NCBI GenBank assembly: GCA_902587325.1
Contig: CACIKV010000002.1
Coordinates: forward strand, 1-64,000
Reading direction: 5' to 3'
Length of the DNA: 64,000 nt
From: an uncultured Bacteroidota bacterium
GTDB lineage: Bacteria; Bacteroidota; Bacteroidia; Flavobacteriales; Flavobacteriaceae
Shown piece after piece: positions 16,734 to 26,128 of this stretch (position 1 is its first letter; the number at the start of each line of letters is the position of its first letter). The position numbers and the translations under genes were made by a program. Below the pieces are notes generated by a model. The model searched no databases and was not told the origin of the DNA. It saw nothing but the letters and a program-made list of their open reading frames with translations.

Positions 16734-16780
16734 TTCTTGTTTTTTTAATTTTTTTTTTGCAAAATTTGTCTTAATAATAA

Positions 16781-16830
16781 ACGAGGATCGATTTGACTGA
16801 TTGCAACCTCTATAAAAAAGTGCTAAAGCA
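16781..16830 (+). ncRNA. SAM-II riboswitch
   Basis: acGAGGatcGATTTGACTGATTGCAACCTCtataaaaaaGTGCTAAAgca. P1 stem GAGG (16783-16786)/CCTC (16807-16810), conserved GATTTGA..ATTGCAA, A-rich linker and downstream TGCTAAA that can pair GCA/TGC in a pseudoknot. Lies upstream of metY/metX-like genes. Confidence 0.87.
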
Positions 16831-16880
16831 GATGCTTTCCCACTAGGTTTTGTCAAATCATATCTCTTAAAATTAAAATT

Positions 16881-18176
16881 ATGAGTGATCAAAAACTATC
16901 TACTAAAGCTCTTCATGCAGGTCATGACACTAGCTTAACACAAGGAACTAGAGCAGTTCCATTATACCAGTCAACATCATATGTATTCAATGACGCTGAT
17001 CATGCTGCCAATCTTTTTGCTTTGGCTGAACCAGGGTATATTTATACAAGATTAAATAATCCAACAAATGATGTTCTAGAACAAAGATTAGCATCTATTG
17101 AAGGTGGAATAGCCGCCGTTGTAACTGCAGGAGGAACAGCTGCAATTTCAACAACTTTATTAACTCTTTTAAAATCAGGAGATCATATTGTGGCTTCTAA
17201 TAGCCTATATGGTGGAACATACAATCTTTTAAGTGTAATGCTTCCAAGATTGGGAATAACTACAACTTTTGTAGATCCTTCTGATCCTGAAAATTTTGCT
17301 GAAGCAGTACAAGAAAATACTAGAGCTTTTTTTGCAGAATCTCTTGGTAATCCTAAACTTGATGTTTTAGACCTGTCTGAGATCTCATCCAGAGCTAAAG
17401 CATCTAAAGTTCCTTTTATTGTTGATAATACTGTAGCAACTCCAGCATTACTTAGACCTATTGAACATGGTGCTGATATAGTAATTCATTCTTTAACAAA
17501 ATTTATTAATGGAAATGGCACTGCTTTAGGTGGTGCAATCATTGATGCAGGTAAATTTGACTGGTCTAGTGGTAAGTTTCCAGAATTTACTGAGCCATCA
17601 CCTGGTTATCACGGATTGATTTACCACGATGCTCTTGGAGAGGCTTCTTTCATAGCAAAAGCTAGAGTCGAAGGATTGAGAGATATTGGTGCAGCATTAA
17701 GCCCATTTAATGCCTTTCAAATTTTACAAGGTTTAGAAACTCTTGAAATCAGAATGAAAAGACACAGTGAAAGTGCTCTTGAGTTAGCAAAGTGGTTAGA
17801 GTCAAAAGATGAGGTTGAGTGGGTAAATTACCCTGGATTGAAAAGTAGCAAATACAAAAAATTATCTGACAAGTACTTGCCTGATGGACAAAGCGGTATT
17901 GTAACTTTTGGAGTAAAAGGAGGATATGATAGTGCAAAAACAGTAGCTGATAAGACAAAAATATTCTCACTACTCGCCAATATTGGTGATTCTAAATCTT
18001 TAATTATTCACCCAGCTAGTACCACTCATTCACAATTAAATGATGATCAACAAATTTCTACTGGTGTAACAAAAGATTTAATCAGACTTTCTGTTGGTCT
18101 TGAAGATATTAATGATCTGAAAGGTGATTTAGAATTTGCATTTTCACAAATTGATTCTAAGATCTTAAGTTCTTAA
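16881..18176 (+). CDS. metY: O-acetylhomoserine aminocarboxypropyltransferase (sulfhydrylase)
   Basis: STKALHAGHDTSLTQGTRAVPLYQSTSYVFNDADHAANLFAL...RLNNPTNDVLEQRLASIEGG...HSLTKFINGNGTALGGAIID. Confidence 0.96.
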   Translation: MSDQKLSTKALHAGHDTSLTQGTRAVPLYQSTSYVFNDADHAANLFALAEPGYIYTRLNNPTNDVLEQRLASIEGGIAAVVTAGGTAAISTTLLTLLKSGDHIVASNSLYGGTYNLLSVMLPRLGITTTFVDPSDPENFAEAVQENTRAFFAESLGNPKLDVLDLSEISSRAKASKVPFIVDNTVATPALLRPIEHGADIVIHSLTKFINGNGTALGGAIIDAGKFDWSSGKFPEFTEPSPGYHGLIYHDALGEASFIAKARVEGLRDIGAALSPFNAFQILQGLETLEIRMKRHSESALELAKWLESKDEVEWVNYPGLKSSKYKKLSDKYLPDGQSGIVTFGVKGGYDSAKTVADKTKIFSLLANIGDSKSLIIHPASTTHSQLNDDQQISTGVTKDLIRLSVGLEDINDLKGDLEFAFSQIDSKILSS

Positions 18177-19136: not shown

Positions 19137-19179
19137 TATATTTTGAAAATTAAATTATCTGATGTATTTTCGTAGAGAA

Positions 19180-19233
19180 ATGAGAAAAAATTATAACACT
19201 AAATTCTACTTTTACTTTTACTATATAAGTTAA
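19180..19233 (+). CDS. Phe/Tyr attenuation leader peptide MRKNYNTKFYFYFYYIS*
   Basis: ATG AGA AAA AAT TAT AAC ACT AAA TTC TAC TTT TAC TTT TAC TAT ATA AGT TAA: 8 of 17 residues Phe/Tyr, 7 consecutive. Located between metX-like and pheA, followed by antiterminator/terminator segments. Confidence 0.88.
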   Translation: MRKNYNTKFYFYFYYIS

Positions 19234-19236
19234 AGG

Positions 19237-19276
19237 GGGATTTTTTGTTAACAAATATATTAAATCAAAGAGTCCT
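19237..19276 (+). promoter_or_regulatory. Antiterminator helix of the pheA attenuator
   Basis: GGGATTTTTTG (19237-19247) pairs along 11 positions with CAAAGAGTCCT (19266-19276), including 3 G-U wobbles. The 3' arm overlaps the 5' arm of the terminator. Confidence 0.75.
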
Positions 19277-19297
19277 GAGTTTCAGGACTTTTTTTTT
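19267..19297 (+). terminator. Intrinsic terminator/attenuator upstream of pheA
   Basis: AGTCCTGA (19271-19278) - loop gtt - TCAGGACT (19282-19289) followed by a T run to 19297; extra A-T/G-T closing pairs from 19267; ends 5 nt before the pheA ATG. Confidence 0.93.
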
Positions 19298-19302
19298 GGA
19301 TT

Positions 19303-20121
19303 ATGAAAATATCAATACAAGGAATTACTGGATCTTATCATTATGAGGTAGCTAAAAATTACTTTGGCAATGACTGTACGACATTAGATTGTATGACTTT
19401 CGATGATGTTGTTTTTTCAGTTAAAAATCATCGCTCTGATTTTGGAGTAATAGCTATTGAAAACTCTATAGCTGGTTCTTTGATTCCAAATTATTCACTT
19501 ATTGATAATAATAATCTTAATATAATAGGAGAGTATTATATAAATATCAATCACCAATTAATGGCACTTCCAGGAGTTAAAATTGAAAATATAAAAACTA
19601 TATCATCTCACCCAATGGCATTGTTACAATGTAAAGATTTTCTAAAAAGTTCTAATAAATTGATTTTGGAAGATAAAGATACTGCAGATGTTGCGAGAAA
19701 AATTTCTGAAAATAATTTAATTGATACTGCTGCAATTGCAAGTGAAAATGCTGCACATATATATGGCTTAAGTATATTAAAAAAGAATATTCAAACAATT
19801 AAAAATAATGAGACTAGATTTGTGATTGTTTCTTCTCAAGAATCATTGAACTCCACACTTAAAAAAAATAAAGCATCATTGAAACTAATTCTTAACCATA
19901 GAAATGGAAGTTTAGCAAAAGTTTTAAATATTTTTGCAGAATATAGTATTAATTTGACTAAAATTCAATCTATACCTGTTATAGAAACTCCTTGGAAATA
20001 TGCATTCTTTATTGATTTAACATTTAACAATATTAAAGATTACATTAATGCTATTGAAAAAATTAAACTTAGCTCAGAATTATTTAAGGAATTTGGATTA
20101 TATAAAAGTGAAAAGCTATGA
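19303..20121 (+). CDS. pheA: Prephenate dehydratase with ACT domain (no chorismate mutase domain)
   Basis: ISIQGITGSYHYEVAKNYF; GVIAIENSIAGSLIPNYSLID; NETRFVIVSSQ; C-terminal ACT-like HRNGSLAKVLNIFAEYSINLTKIQSIP. Confidence 0.95.
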   Translation: MKISIQGITGSYHYEVAKNYFGNDCTTLDCMTFDDVVFSVKNHRSDFGVIAIENSIAGSLIPNYSLIDNNNLNIIGEYYININHQLMALPGVKIENIKTISSHPMALLQCKDFLKSSNKLILEDKDTADVARKISENNLIDTAAIASENAAHIYGLSILKKNIQTIKNNETRFVIVSSQESLNSTLKKNKASLKLILNHRNGSLAKVLNIFAEYSINLTKIQSIPVIETPWKYAFFIDLTFNNIKDYINAIEKIKLSSELFKEFGLYKSEKL

Positions 20122-21263
20122 TTAGAGTTGCTGATAGATTAAATCATATTGAAGAATATTATTTTTCAAAAAAATTAAGGGAAGTCAAGAAACTTGAACT
20201 GGATGGTAGACCGATAATAAATATGGGTATTGGAAGCCCTGATATTTCTCCTCCAAAAAAAATAATTAAATCTTTAGAGAAATCATTATATCAAAAAAAT
20301 GCCCATCGATATCAAAGTTATAAAGGAACAGATTTGTTAAGAAATTCAATAAAGAGTTTTTACAAAAAAAAATATAATGTCAAATTAAATTCCGAAAAAA
20401 ATATTCTTCCATTACTTGGCTCAAAAGAAGGAATAATGCACATATCTTTAGCATTTTTGAATCCAGGTGATGAAGTTTTAATTCCCGATCCTGGTTACCC
20501 TACTTACACCTCAGTTACAAATATTGTTGGTGCAAAACCAGTTTATTATGATTTAATTCAAGAAAACTCTTGGCTTCCAGACATAAATAAATTAAATCAA
20601 ATGGATTTAACAAAAGTTAAACTTATGTGGATCAATTACCCTAACATGCCAACCGGTGCTGATTTAGATTCTAATAATTTTAATGAGCTTGTTTTATTCG
20701 CCAAAAAAAACAAAATTTTAATAATTAATGATAATCCTTATAGTTTTATATTAAATGATAATCCAAAAAGTATTTTATCCCTAAAAAATTCTATAGATTA
20801 TTGTTTAGAATTAAATTCACTAAGTAAGTCCTTTAATTTATCAGGTTGGAGAGTTGGAATGCTTATTGGCTCAAAAAAAAATATTAATAGTGTTTTAAAA
20901 ATAAAATCAAATATGGACTCAGGAATGTTTTTCGGAATACAAATGGGTGCTGCAGATGCTCTACAATTAGGTGAAAAATGGTTTAAAAAAATTAATAATA
21001 TTTATTATAAAAGAAAAAAACTGGTACACCAAATATGTGATATTTTAAATATTTCATATAATCCAAATTCTGTTGGAATGTTTGTATGGGGAAAAATTAA
21101 TTCCAATAAATCATCTAAAGAAATGACTGACTATTTACTTTATGAAAAAAATATTTTTATTGCTCCAGGTTTTATTTTTGGAAAAAATGGTGAGGGTTAC
21201 ATTCGTTTTTCTCTATGTGTCGATGAAGAGTTAATTATTGAAGCAAAAAAAAGGTTAATATGA
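20118..21263 (+). CDS. Class I/II aminotransferase (probable aromatic amino-acid aminotransferase)
   Basis: INMGIGSPDISPP, LIPDPGYPTYTSVTNIVGAKPVYYDL, INYPNMPTGA, SLSKSFNLSGWRVGMLIG; in pheA-tyrA operon. Confidence 0.92.
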   Translation: MIRVADRLNHIEEYYFSKKLREVKKLELDGRPIINMGIGSPDISPPKKIIKSLEKSLYQKNAHRYQSYKGTDLLRNSIKSFYKKKYNVKLNSEKNILPLLGSKEGIMHISLAFLNPGDEVLIPDPGYPTYTSVTNIVGAKPVYYDLIQENSWLPDINKLNQMDLTKVKLMWINYPNMPTGADLDSNNFNELVLFAKKNKILIINDNPYSFILNDNPKSILSLKNSIDYCLELNSLSKSFNLSGWRVGMLIGSKKNINSVLKIKSNMDSGMFFGIQMGAADALQLGEKWFKKINNIYYKRKKLVHQICDILNISYNPNSVGMFVWGKINSNKSSKEMTDYLLYEKNIFIAPGFIFGKNGEGYIRFSLCVDEELIIEAKKRLI

Positions 21264-22126
21264 AAATTGGTATAATCGGTTTAGGATTAATGGGAGGTTC
21301 GTTTTCATATGGAATAAAAGAACTATTTCCGAATTCAGAAATTTTTGGATTTGATATTTCCAATGATAACTTTAAAATTGCTACTGAACTGGGAATAATT
21401 GATTCGAAGCTTAACATTAATAATATATCTAATTTTAAATTAATTCTTGTTTCTATTCCAGTTGATAAATCGATCGATGTTTTAAAAATTGTTTTAGATA
21501 ATGTATCTGACAAAACACTAGTAATGGATGTTGGCTCAACGAAGAAAAATATATGTTCTAAATTGAAGAATCACCCAAACAGAAAAAATTTTTTAGCAAC
21601 ACACCCAATATCAGGTACTGAAAATAGTGGTCCAAATGCAGCTATAAAAAAATTATATTTCAATATAACCAATATTATTTGTGAGCCTGAATTAACAAGT
21701 CCTGATATATTAAATTTTGCATATAGTTTATTTAGTAAGTTTAATATGAAAATTATTAATATGGACCCAGCCTCACACGATGAACATATTTCATATGTGT
21801 CTCATTTGTCTCACATCACATCATTTATTTTAGCAAAAACAGTTATTCAAAAAGAGGAAAATGAAAAAAATATTTTTGATTTAGCTGGAAGTGGATTTGA
21901 GTCAACTGTGAGGCTAGCTAAAAGCTCTTCCAAAATGTGGGCTCCTATATTTCTTGAGAACAAAGATAATGTTACAGAAGCGTTAGATGAATACATCAAA
22001 AACTTGGATGAATTAAAACAATTGATAGTTAAAAATGATAAAAAATCAATAGTTAATGATTTAAATAATATAAACAGAGTAAAAAAAATCCTTTCAGGTA
22101 TTAATAATAAAAAAAATGAAAAATAA
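21260..22126 (+). CDS. tyrA: Prephenate dehydrogenase
   Basis: MKIGIIGLGLMGGSFSYGIKELFP; VMDVGSTKKNI; FLATHPISGTENSGP; YVSHLSHITSFILA. Confidence 0.95.
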   Translation: MKIGIIGLGLMGGSFSYGIKELFPNSEIFGFDISNDNFKIATELGIIDSKLNINNISNFKLILVSIPVDKSIDVLKIVLDNVSDKTLVMDVGSTKKNICSKLKNHPNRKNFLATHPISGTENSGPNAAIKKLYFNITNIICEPELTSPDILNFAYSLFSKFNMKIINMDPASHDEHISYVSHLSHITSFILAKTVIQKEENEKNIFDLAGSGFESTVRLAKSSSKMWAPIFLENKDNVTEALDEYIKNLDELKQLIVKNDKKSIVNDLNNINRVKKILSGINNKKNEK

Positions 22127-23198
22127 TAAAAAACTTAGAAGCTGGCTTGATAAATTTAATTTAGATCATCCTCTTGTTATCGCTGGTCCGTGCAGTGCAG
22201 AAACTGAAACACAAATGATGGATATTGCAGAGAAATTAAAAGACTCTGATGTGTCAATTTTTAGGGCTGGTATTTGGAAACCTAGAACTAGACCTGGAAT
22301 GTTTGAAGGAGTGGGAGCAATTGGTTTAAAATGGTTAAAAAAAGTCAAGGAAGAGACTCAAATGCTCACTGCTACTGAAGTTGCTAATGCTAATCACGTT
22401 AAACTTGCTCTGGAAAATGATGTTGATGTATTGTGGATTGGAGCCAGATCAACTGTAAGCCCATTCATAGTTCAAGAAATTGCGGATGCACTCAAAGGAA
22501 CAGAGAAGATAGTACTATTGAAAAATCCGGTAAATCCTGATTTGGCTCTATGGTATGGAGGAATTGAAAGACTTTATTCATCAGATATTAAGAATTTAGG
22601 TGTCATTCACAGAGGTTTCTCTACATATTCAAAATCAAAATACAGAAATAACCCAGAATGGCAGATTCCTATTGAACTCCAAAATAAATTCCCAGATCTT
22701 CCATTAATTTGTGATCCCTCTCATATATGTGGAAGAAGAGATTTGCTTCAAGATGTATCACAAACATCTCTTGATTTAAATTTTGATGGATTAATGATCG
22801 AGTCCCATGTGGATCCTGATAATGCGTGGAGTGATGCTGCTCAACAGATAACCCCTAAAGTTTTAATAGGTTTAATGAAAGATTTAAAAATTAGAAAAGG
22901 CACCTTCAAAGAAGAGAGCTATTTGAATAAGTTAGCAAAATATAGGACAAAAATTGATATCGCTGACAATGACATTCTTGAAATATTGTCAAAGCGTATG
23001 ACTATTGCCGATAAAATTGGAAAAATTAAAAAAGAGCAAAATGTAGCCGTATTGCAGTCTAAAAGATGGAATCAAATTTTAGGAAAAATGATTTTAGATG
23101 GAAAAGAAAAAGGATTAAGTGAGGAGTTTGTTTTAAAAATATTTAAAGCTATTCATCAAGAATCAATTAATCATCAAAAGAAAATAATAAATAGTTAA
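22116..23198 (+). CDS. Bifunctional 3-deoxy-7-phosphoheptulonate synthase / chorismate mutase
   Basis: VIAGPCSAETETQMMDIA, FRAGIWKPRTRPGMFEGVG, LICDPSHICGRR; C-terminal AroQ-like KYRTKIDIADNDILEILSKRMTIADKIGKIKKEQNV. Confidence 0.95.
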   Translation: MKNNKKLRSWLDKFNLDHPLVIAGPCSAETETQMMDIAEKLKDSDVSIFRAGIWKPRTRPGMFEGVGAIGLKWLKKVKEETQMLTATEVANANHVKLALENDVDVLWIGARSTVSPFIVQEIADALKGTEKIVLLKNPVNPDLALWYGGIERLYSSDIKNLGVIHRGFSTYSKSKYRNNPEWQIPIELQNKFPDLPLICDPSHICGRRDLLQDVSQTSLDLNFDGLMIESHVDPDNAWSDAAQQITPKVLIGLMKDLKIRKGTFKEESYLNKLAKYRTKIDIADNDILEILSKRMTIADKIGKIKKEQNVAVLQSKRWNQILGKMILDGKEKGLSEEFVLKIFKAIHQESINHQKKIINS

Positions 23199-24569: not shown

Positions 24570-24896
24570 ATGGAATTAAATATTTTACAAAAAAAAGTTG
24601 ATGATTGGATTAAAAAGTATGGTGTAAGATACTTTAATGAGCTTACTAATATGGCTCAACTAACTGAAGAGGTTGGTGAAGTTGCACGAATTATATCAAG
24701 AGTTTATGGTGAGCAATCTCCAAAAAAAAATGAAAAAATTAATGATTTGGGAGAAGAGTTAGCAGATGTTTTATTTGTATTGATTTGTCTTGCAAATCAA
24801 ACTGAGGTCGATCTAGAAAAAGCTTTTGATGAAAAACTAAAAAAGAAAACAAAAAGAGATATAGATAGGCATCTATCCAATGATAAATTAAAATGA
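24570..24896 (+). CDS. MazG-like nucleotide pyrophosphohydrolase
   Basis: MAQLTEEVGEVARIISRVYGEQ...LGEELADVLFVLICLANQTEVDLEKAFDEKLKKK; start reset to ATG 24570. Confidence 0.9.
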   Translation: MELNILQKKVDDWIKKYGVRYFNELTNMAQLTEEVGEVARIISRVYGEQSPKKNEKINDLGEELADVLFVLICLANQTEVDLEKAFDEKLKKKTKRDIDRHLSNDKLK

Positions 24897-26128
24897 AAAA
24901 AATTCAGATAAAACCATCTGATTTATTAAAAAACTCAAGCATTAAAATCTCAGGCTCAAAAAGTGAGTCAAATAGAATTTTAATTTTAAACTCAATATAT
25001 AAAAATATTAAAGTTAGTAACCTTTCAAACTCAGATGATACCATTTTGCTTAAAAGTGCACTTGATAATCTAAATGAAAAAATTGACATTCATCATGCAG
25101 GTACTGCCATGAGATTCCTAACCGCATATCTATCAACAGTAGAGGGTAAAAGGTTCATACTAACTGGATCTAAAAGAATGAAAGAAAGACCTATTGGTAT
25201 TCTAGTTGAAGCATTAAAAGATCTGGGTTTTAAAATTAATTATTTGGAAAAAAATGGTTTTCCTCCGTTAAAAATTTCTGGAAATAAAAGTAAAATATCA
25301 AATATAAGTATTGATTCAAATGTTAGTAGTCAATTTATTAGTGCTTTAATTCTCATAGCACCCACTTTAGAAAATGGTTTAAAAATTAAACTTGAGGGTA
25401 AAATTGTTTCAAAGCCATACTTAAATTTGACTTTAAATGTTCTAAAAAAAATAGGAATTTCATATTCATTTAAAAAAAATATAATAGAAATTAAAAATGT
25501 AAAAAAAATAAGAAATAATGATTATTTAATAGAATCTGATTGGACCTCTTTATCTTATTTTTATTCAATTGTAGCAGTAAATAAAAAAATAAATATCAAA
25601 CTAAATAATTTTTTTAAAGATTCATTTCAAGGTGACAGTATTTTGAATAAGATTTTTATTGATCTAGGAGTTAAAACAAAATTTTTAAATGCAAGCGAAA
25701 TACTATTGTCTCCAATAAAAAAATATAAAAAACCAAATAATTTGTCACTAAATTTGATTGATTCACCTGATCTTGCTCAAACAATTGCAGTGACATGTTT
25801 GGCCATGAAGATCCCTGTTGAAATAACTGGTTTACAAACTTTAAAAATAAAAGAAACTGACAGAATCTTGGCGTTAAACAATGAACTTACAAAGTTTGGA
25901 GCAAAAATTAAATATGATGATTCAAGTATTGTTATTTATCCTCCAAAAGAAATTAAGAAAAATATTAATATAGACACATATAATGATCATCGAATGGCTC
26001 TATCTGTAGCACCTTTGGGTTTAATTGTCCCAATAACTATAAATGATCCAGATGTAATATCAAAATCGTTTCCTGAATATTGGAATAATCTTTCTCAATT
26101 AGGATTTAATTTAAAAAATTTAAATTAA
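24893..26128 (+). CDS. aroA: 3-phosphoshikimate 1-carboxyvinyltransferase (EPSP synthase)
   Basis: KISGSKSESNRILIL; HHAGTAMRFLTAYLS; GSKRMKERPI; LKIKETDRILALNNEL; YNDHRMALSVAPLGL. Confidence 0.95.
   Translation: MKKIQIKPSDLLKNSSIKISGSKSESNRILILNSIYKNIKVSNLSNSDDTILLKSALDNLNEKIDIHHAGTAMRFLTAYLSTVEGKRFILTGSKRMKERPIGILVEALKDLGFKINYLEKNGFPPLKISGNKSKISNISIDSNVSSQFISALILIAPTLENGLKIKLEGKIVSKPYLNLTLNVLKKIGISYSFKKNIIEIKNVKKIRNNDYLIESDWTSLSYFYSIVAVNKKINIKLNNFFKDSFQGDSILNKIFIDLGVKTKFLNASEILLSPIKKYKKPNNLSLNLIDSPDLAQTIAVTCLAMKIPVEITGLQTLKIKETDRILALNNELTKFGAKIKYDDSSIVIYPPKEIKKNINIDTYNDHRMALSVAPLGLIVPITINDPDVISKSFPEYWNNLSQLGFNLKNLN

Follow-up and report, generated by a model that had tools for sequence, protein, structure and literature searches.

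A predicted Phe- and Tyr-sensing transcription attenuator upstream of pheA in Flavobacteriaceae

The pheA leader in the window (the whole 64,000-nucleotide stretch of DNA that was analysed, from a marine Flavobacteriaceae-type bacterium) is very probably a classical ribosome-mediated transcription attenuator, predicted to regulate the genes behind it by sensing charged tRNA-Phe and tRNA-Tyr. A short leader ORF, an intrinsic terminator, and an alternative pairing that overlaps the terminator lie between a metX-like ORF and pheA, and they are conserved together among relatives. The original prediction had already read the gap as a ribosome-mediated attenuator, a reading supported by this conservation, by the alternative pairing, and by the match between codon identity and pathway in three operons of the same genome.

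Leader region and the genes behind it

The gap from the end of the metX-like ORF (19136) to the ATG of pheA (19303) measures 166 nt, the length originally given. It includes, on the plus strand, a leader peptide ORF of 17 codons at positions 19180 to 19233 (ATG at 19180, TAA at 19231-19233), which encodes MRKNYNTKFYFYFYYIS and reads ATG AGA AAA AAT TAT AAC ACT AAA TTC TAC TTT TAC TTT TAC TAT ATA AGT TAA. The seven consecutive Phe/Tyr codons, TTC TAC TTT TAC TTT TAC TAT (FYFYFYY; 19204 to 19224, plus strand), are present as had been claimed and form the proposed sensing or stall site. The sequence AGGGGGATTTTTTG follows directly 3' of the leader ORF and is in turn followed by the terminator hairpin.

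The codon string (TTY/TAY)x7 is found 17 times in the 1.475-Mb genome, against 19 times for a reversed control pattern, and its chance expectation within the 166-nt gap is about 0.001 per strand. A T-rich codon string alone is therefore too common to convince, which is why its conservation was tested. Sixteen of the 17 genomic matches are located on the minus strand of their contigs, the pheA leader being the only one on the plus strand.

The intrinsic terminator occupies positions 19267 to 19297 of the plus strand, where the stem AAAGAGTCCTGA / TCAGGACTTTTT (19267-19278 and 19282-19293; -13.9 kcal/mol) encloses the loop GTT (19279-19281), and the run of nine Ts (19289-19297) ends 5 nt before the pheA ATG, exactly as first reported. 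In the terminator scan this is a 12-pair stem, with two sites (the hairpin being counted once per strand) compared with 0.1 expected in shuffles, and the fold of the 141-nt region (z = -2.7) is more stable than all 200 shuffles. The antiterminator helix, which the original prediction had postulated and left unplaced, could be located: segment 2, its 5' arm GGGATTTTTTG (19237-19247, plus strand), pairs with segment 3, its 3' arm CAAAGAGTCCT (19266-19276, plus strand), which overlaps the 5' arm of the terminator. This 2:3 helix has 11 contiguous pairs and a stability of -12.5 kcal/mol, matched by none of 100 shuffles.

A candidate pause helix 1:2 extends over 19195 to 19250 of the plus strand (19195-19217 with 19228-19250). 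It is a strong helix in the window sequence, at -12.3 kcal/mol, with four of 100 shuffles being equally good. In the 67 non-redundant loci it always overlaps segment 2, but since it exceeds the shuffles in just 21 of them, we regard the 1:2 helix as likely rather than proven.

The leader stop of the window species and of loci L002 and L003 (19231-19233) is positioned six codons before that of the close relatives L004 and L043. The L004 ORF runs on past the serine as IKRIFC, and the ORFs of both L004 and L043 cross segment 2; in the fold model, a ribosome at the earlier stop of the window leader still covers segment 2.

Profile searches agree with the gene identities named originally, from prephenate dehydratase to aroA, all on the plus strand. 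The first gene predicted to be controlled is pheA itself, coding for prephenate dehydratase (19303-20121; NCBIfam PRK11898, E 2e-57, below the curated cut-off), followed by a class I/II aminotransferase (20118-21263), the prephenate dehydrogenase gene tyrA (21260-22126; NCBIfam PRK08507, 345 bits, above cut-off), and a DAHP synthase-chorismate mutase (22116-23198), for which both domains match with scores below their curated cut-offs. The last aromatic gene of the string is aroA, coding for EPSP synthase (24893-26128; TIGR01356, 296 bits, above cut-off), and rsgA-, dtd-, and mazG-like ORFs, named by eye, lie between it and the DAHP synthase-chorismate mutase gene; the genes overlap or abut. 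On the upstream side, a SAM-II riboswitch (16777-16836; 72.8 bits, gathering score 44) is found directly 5' of a metY-like gene (starting at 16881) and the metX-like gene, placing two RNA-based amino-acid controls, this riboswitch and the pheA attenuator, within 2.5 kb.

Conservation among relatives and codon identity in three operons

Eighty pheA loci were compared; they come from 30 genomes belonging to the genus and family of the window species and from scanning species genomes, and the two sets overlap in part. In 76 of the 80, an in-frame leader with a Phe/Tyr run of three to nine residues and, behind it, an intrinsic terminator precede pheA, which excludes a chance origin of the run and the terminator. 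The four exceptions are L046, whose contig ends 104 nt upstream, L076, a partial gene, L077, an unrelated Desulfoplanes record, and L020, the pheA locus of an intact relative, where no such leader was found. The leader peptides vary (FYFYFYY, FYFFFYY, WFYFFF, WYYFYFY), and run, frame, and position stay constant. Beyond the order, 25 pheA loci were sampled from elsewhere in the class; 16 of them carry a leader with an aromatic run, mostly with a terminator, and nine show no leader by the criteria used.

The strongest evidence that the antiterminator is real comes from the co-variation of segments 2 and 3 between lineages. The terminator stems differ by lineage (AGTCCTG, AGTCTCG, ATCCCGAT, ACCCGGA, AGTCCCG), and segment 2 varies along with them. 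Paired with its own segment 3, segment 2 reaches a mean of -10.6 kcal/mol, compared with -5.8 kcal/mol for a foreign stem class, and foreign arms proved equally good in 2% (median 0%) in this own-versus-foreign arm test. Over the 67 non-redundant relatives, the 2:3 helix has a mean stability of -12.6 kcal/mol, does better than 95 or more of 100 shuffles in 60 loci, and begins 7 to 12 nt past the last codon of the run in nearly all of them; the terminators of L019, L021, L055, and L079 were anchored on the inner stem. Related genomes thus retain the run of aromatic codons as well as the hairpins that overlap, the features on which the original prediction had staked itself.

Specificity was assessed in the window and a further 400 kb or so of its genome (about 464 kb altogether), where 197 genes are preceded by a gap of 40 nt or more. 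A terminator just ahead of the gene combined with a leader ORF is found in two of these 197 gaps, those of pheA and hisG, and a third match is a tRNA. The His leader before hisG (L141; G000:C6, reverse strand) encodes MRKLIHNHHSLFLILKRDM and has an antiterminator and the terminator AAACCCGTTTGAGAAATCAAGCGGGTTTTTTT, and a Trp leader before trpE, which lies elsewhere in the genome (L142; G000:C12, reverse strand), encodes MKNYYKFWWQRYINRLLSL, likewise with an antiterminator and with the terminator AAGGCTTGTCTTTGCGACAGGCCTTTTTTTTTT. Both antiterminators (hisG, -11.0 kcal/mol; trpE, -10.1 kcal/mol) start 12 to 14 nt past the codon run, in the same geometry as at pheA. The codon identity fits the pathway in all three operons of the genome, with Phe and Tyr before pheA, His before hisG, and a Trp pair before trpE. 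For ilvD, no match was found in this genome.

Proposed mechanism and alternative explanations

From these elements we infer a course of events leading from transcript start over ribosome stalling to a termination that responds to amino acids. Transcription would begin about 3 nt 5' of the leader ATG. When Phe- or Tyr-tRNA is scarce, the ribosome would stall within 19204-19224, leaving segment 2 (19237-19247) free to pair with the emerging segment 3 (19266-19276), and this 2:3 pairing would block the terminator, so that pheA, the aminotransferase gene, tyrA, aroF/CM, and onward would be transcribed. When both tRNAs are plentiful, the ribosome would reach the stop codon (19231) and mask segment 2, whereupon segment 3 could pair with segment 4 (19282-19293), resulting in termination at the T-run. 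If the leader is not translated, helix 1:2 may hold segment 2, making the terminator the default again.

To model the ribosome, the nascent RNA was folded at the stage before segment 4 has emerged, with everything up to the leading edge of the ribosome removed. Wherever in the run the A-site is placed, this footprint folding gives the antiterminator a pair probability of 0.98-0.99, and with the ribosome at the stop codon the probability falls to 0.09 (edge 11) or 0.00 (edge 14). In the absence of a ribosome, the 2:3 helix is favoured before segment 4 with a probability of 0.85, which means that an untranslated default to termination would need an early 1:2 helix or a 3:4 hairpin displacing 2:3. 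Once segment 4 is present, the 3:4 terminator always wins at equilibrium, suggesting that the attenuation decision is kinetic and needs co-transcriptional timing. Known classical attenuators likewise rely on such a kinetic co-transcriptional decision.

The short distance of 5 nt between the T-run end and the pheA ATG, and a similar closeness to the ATG in many same-genus loci, would also suit a control of translation instead of, or besides, termination, in which the 3:4 hairpin hides the pheA start and a stalled ribosome frees it via 2:3. Yet behind every hairpin there is a T-run of the kind seen in intrinsic terminators, and the distance from hairpin to pheA is 20 to 95 nt in many relatives (L042, L025, L056, L059), too great for the pheA start to be hidden, which makes translational control very unlikely. 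Alternative terminator and antiterminator helices are used by riboswitches as well, and one of the SAM-II type is located nearby in the window. A riboswitch that binds a metabolite or a tRNA, for instance a T-box, beside a short ORF that is there by coincidence is even harder to credit: an aptamer would not fit between leader and terminator, and what stays constant is a run of codons, kept in frame, for a residue that fits the pathway in three operons. At gathering score, Rfam covariance models find nothing between 19100 and 19320, the window yielding only the SAM-II riboswitch and a tRNA, and at a relaxed threshold no family comes near its cut-off at the pheA leader.

T-rich strings do arise by chance in this AT-rich genome (17 TWYx7 in 1.475 Mb), and the hairpin could on that account be a plain terminator of the metY-metX operon next to a fortuitous T-rich frame, with pheA expressed by another promoter or by read-through. 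The predicted promoter, however, sits between metX and the terminator, the frame and the run are conserved in 76 of the 80 loci, and segments 2 and 3 co-vary, arguing that this explanation has next to no probability; judged from comparative sequence data, we consider its central claim refuted.

Predicted leader start and relation to known systems

A predicted promoter of the Bacteroidota primary-sigma type precedes the leader at positions 19142 to 19172 of the plus strand, composed of TTTG (19142-19145; -33 box), a spacer of 19 nt, and TATTTTCG (19165-19172; -7 box). It fits nine of ten consensus positions, and nearly all same-genus loci score 9 or 10 of 10 with a 19-nt spacer. In Flavobacterium psychrophilum the TAnnTTTG box is described at -12 to -5 (PMC9723704); its position there leads us to predict the transcript start at about 19177, giving a 5' untranslated region (UTR) of about 3 nt. 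An in-frame ATG at 19162 (MYFRREMRKN...) was rejected as the leader start, being located before both the predicted -7 box and the predicted transcript start. Bacteroidota initiate translation largely without Shine-Dalgarno pairing.

In nearly all same-genus loci (L001-L018), the distance from box to ATG is 4 to 7 nt (predicted UTR of 0 to 3 nt), whereas it is 10 to 19 nt, most commonly 16 to 19 nt, in most other Flavobacteriaceae (L021-L080), a difference in the leader 5' UTR that is predicted to be lineage specific. The trpE and hisG leaders also begin 4 to 7 nt past a box-like sequence, imperfect in the case of hisG; the trpE leader ATG is found 4 nt past a perfect TATATTTG box and may therefore be leaderless. 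The genome-wide control for 5' UTRs comprises only four perfect promoters, with predicted UTRs of -1, 15, 18, and 36 nt, a number too small to draw a firm contrast. Leaderless mRNAs make up 5.5% in F. psychrophilum (PMC9723704). We tentatively suggest, as a possibility somewhat short of probable, that the attenuator leaders of this genus are carried on leaderless or near-leaderless transcripts (predicted 5' UTR of 0 to 3 nt, compared with about 12 to 15 nt in other Flavobacteriaceae) and that Phe/Tyr attenuation is an ancestral trait of the class. If true, ribosome loading would be linked directly with the first few nucleotides of the emerging transcript, and a close timing of ribosome and RNA polymerase would be implied in Bacteroidota.

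Leader-peptide attenuation is textbook knowledge in Proteobacteria and known in Actinobacteria; to our knowledge, it is little documented in Bacteroidota, and for pheA in this phylum it is absent from Rfam. The pheL-pheA attenuator of gamma-Proteobacteria (RF01859, Phe_leader) shares with the present one the Phe-rich leader, the mutually exclusive antiterminator and terminator, and pheA behind them. The window leader is not a member of this family by sequence, scoring 22.2 bits where the gathering score is 55, and it differs in mixing Phe and Tyr codons before an operon that makes both amino acids, as well as in its Bacteroidota-type promoter and the near absence of a predicted 5' UTR. A switch conserved across the class would serve as a natural reporter of aminoacyl-tRNA levels and of how transcription and translation are coupled, in a phylum whose promoters and translation starts are unusual.

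Whether the Bacteroidota instance had been described, which the original prediction had left undecided, can be answered in part. The 2021 transcriptome of F. psychrophilum reported strong clues that leader peptides attenuate amino-acid operons, and it described, ahead of pheA (and hisG), a 5' element that is conserved in other Flavobacteriaceae genera and has no Rfam hits (PMC9723704). This concerns the same gene in the same bacterial family. The finding was thus partly anticipated, and the mechanism is not a new one. In the main text of that paper, neither a leader sequence nor an alternative structure is given; the explicit three-segment model, its reach across the class, and the predicted near-leaderless leader start are the new additions. 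A map of Bacteroides thetaiotaomicron mentions sORFs reminiscent of leader peptides. In the trpL attenuator of Sinorhizobium meliloti, the leader ORF lies on a transcript that starts at its ATG (PMC7298713), resembling the 5' UTR of 0 to 3 nt predicted here, although that system belongs to another phylum and uses Trp codons, and the transcript start of the pheA leader is a predicted one. Among our loci, a Flavobacterium sp. (L057) carries the leader MLNNSFYYSNSFYFFWNGERDCRIVI together with a terminator.
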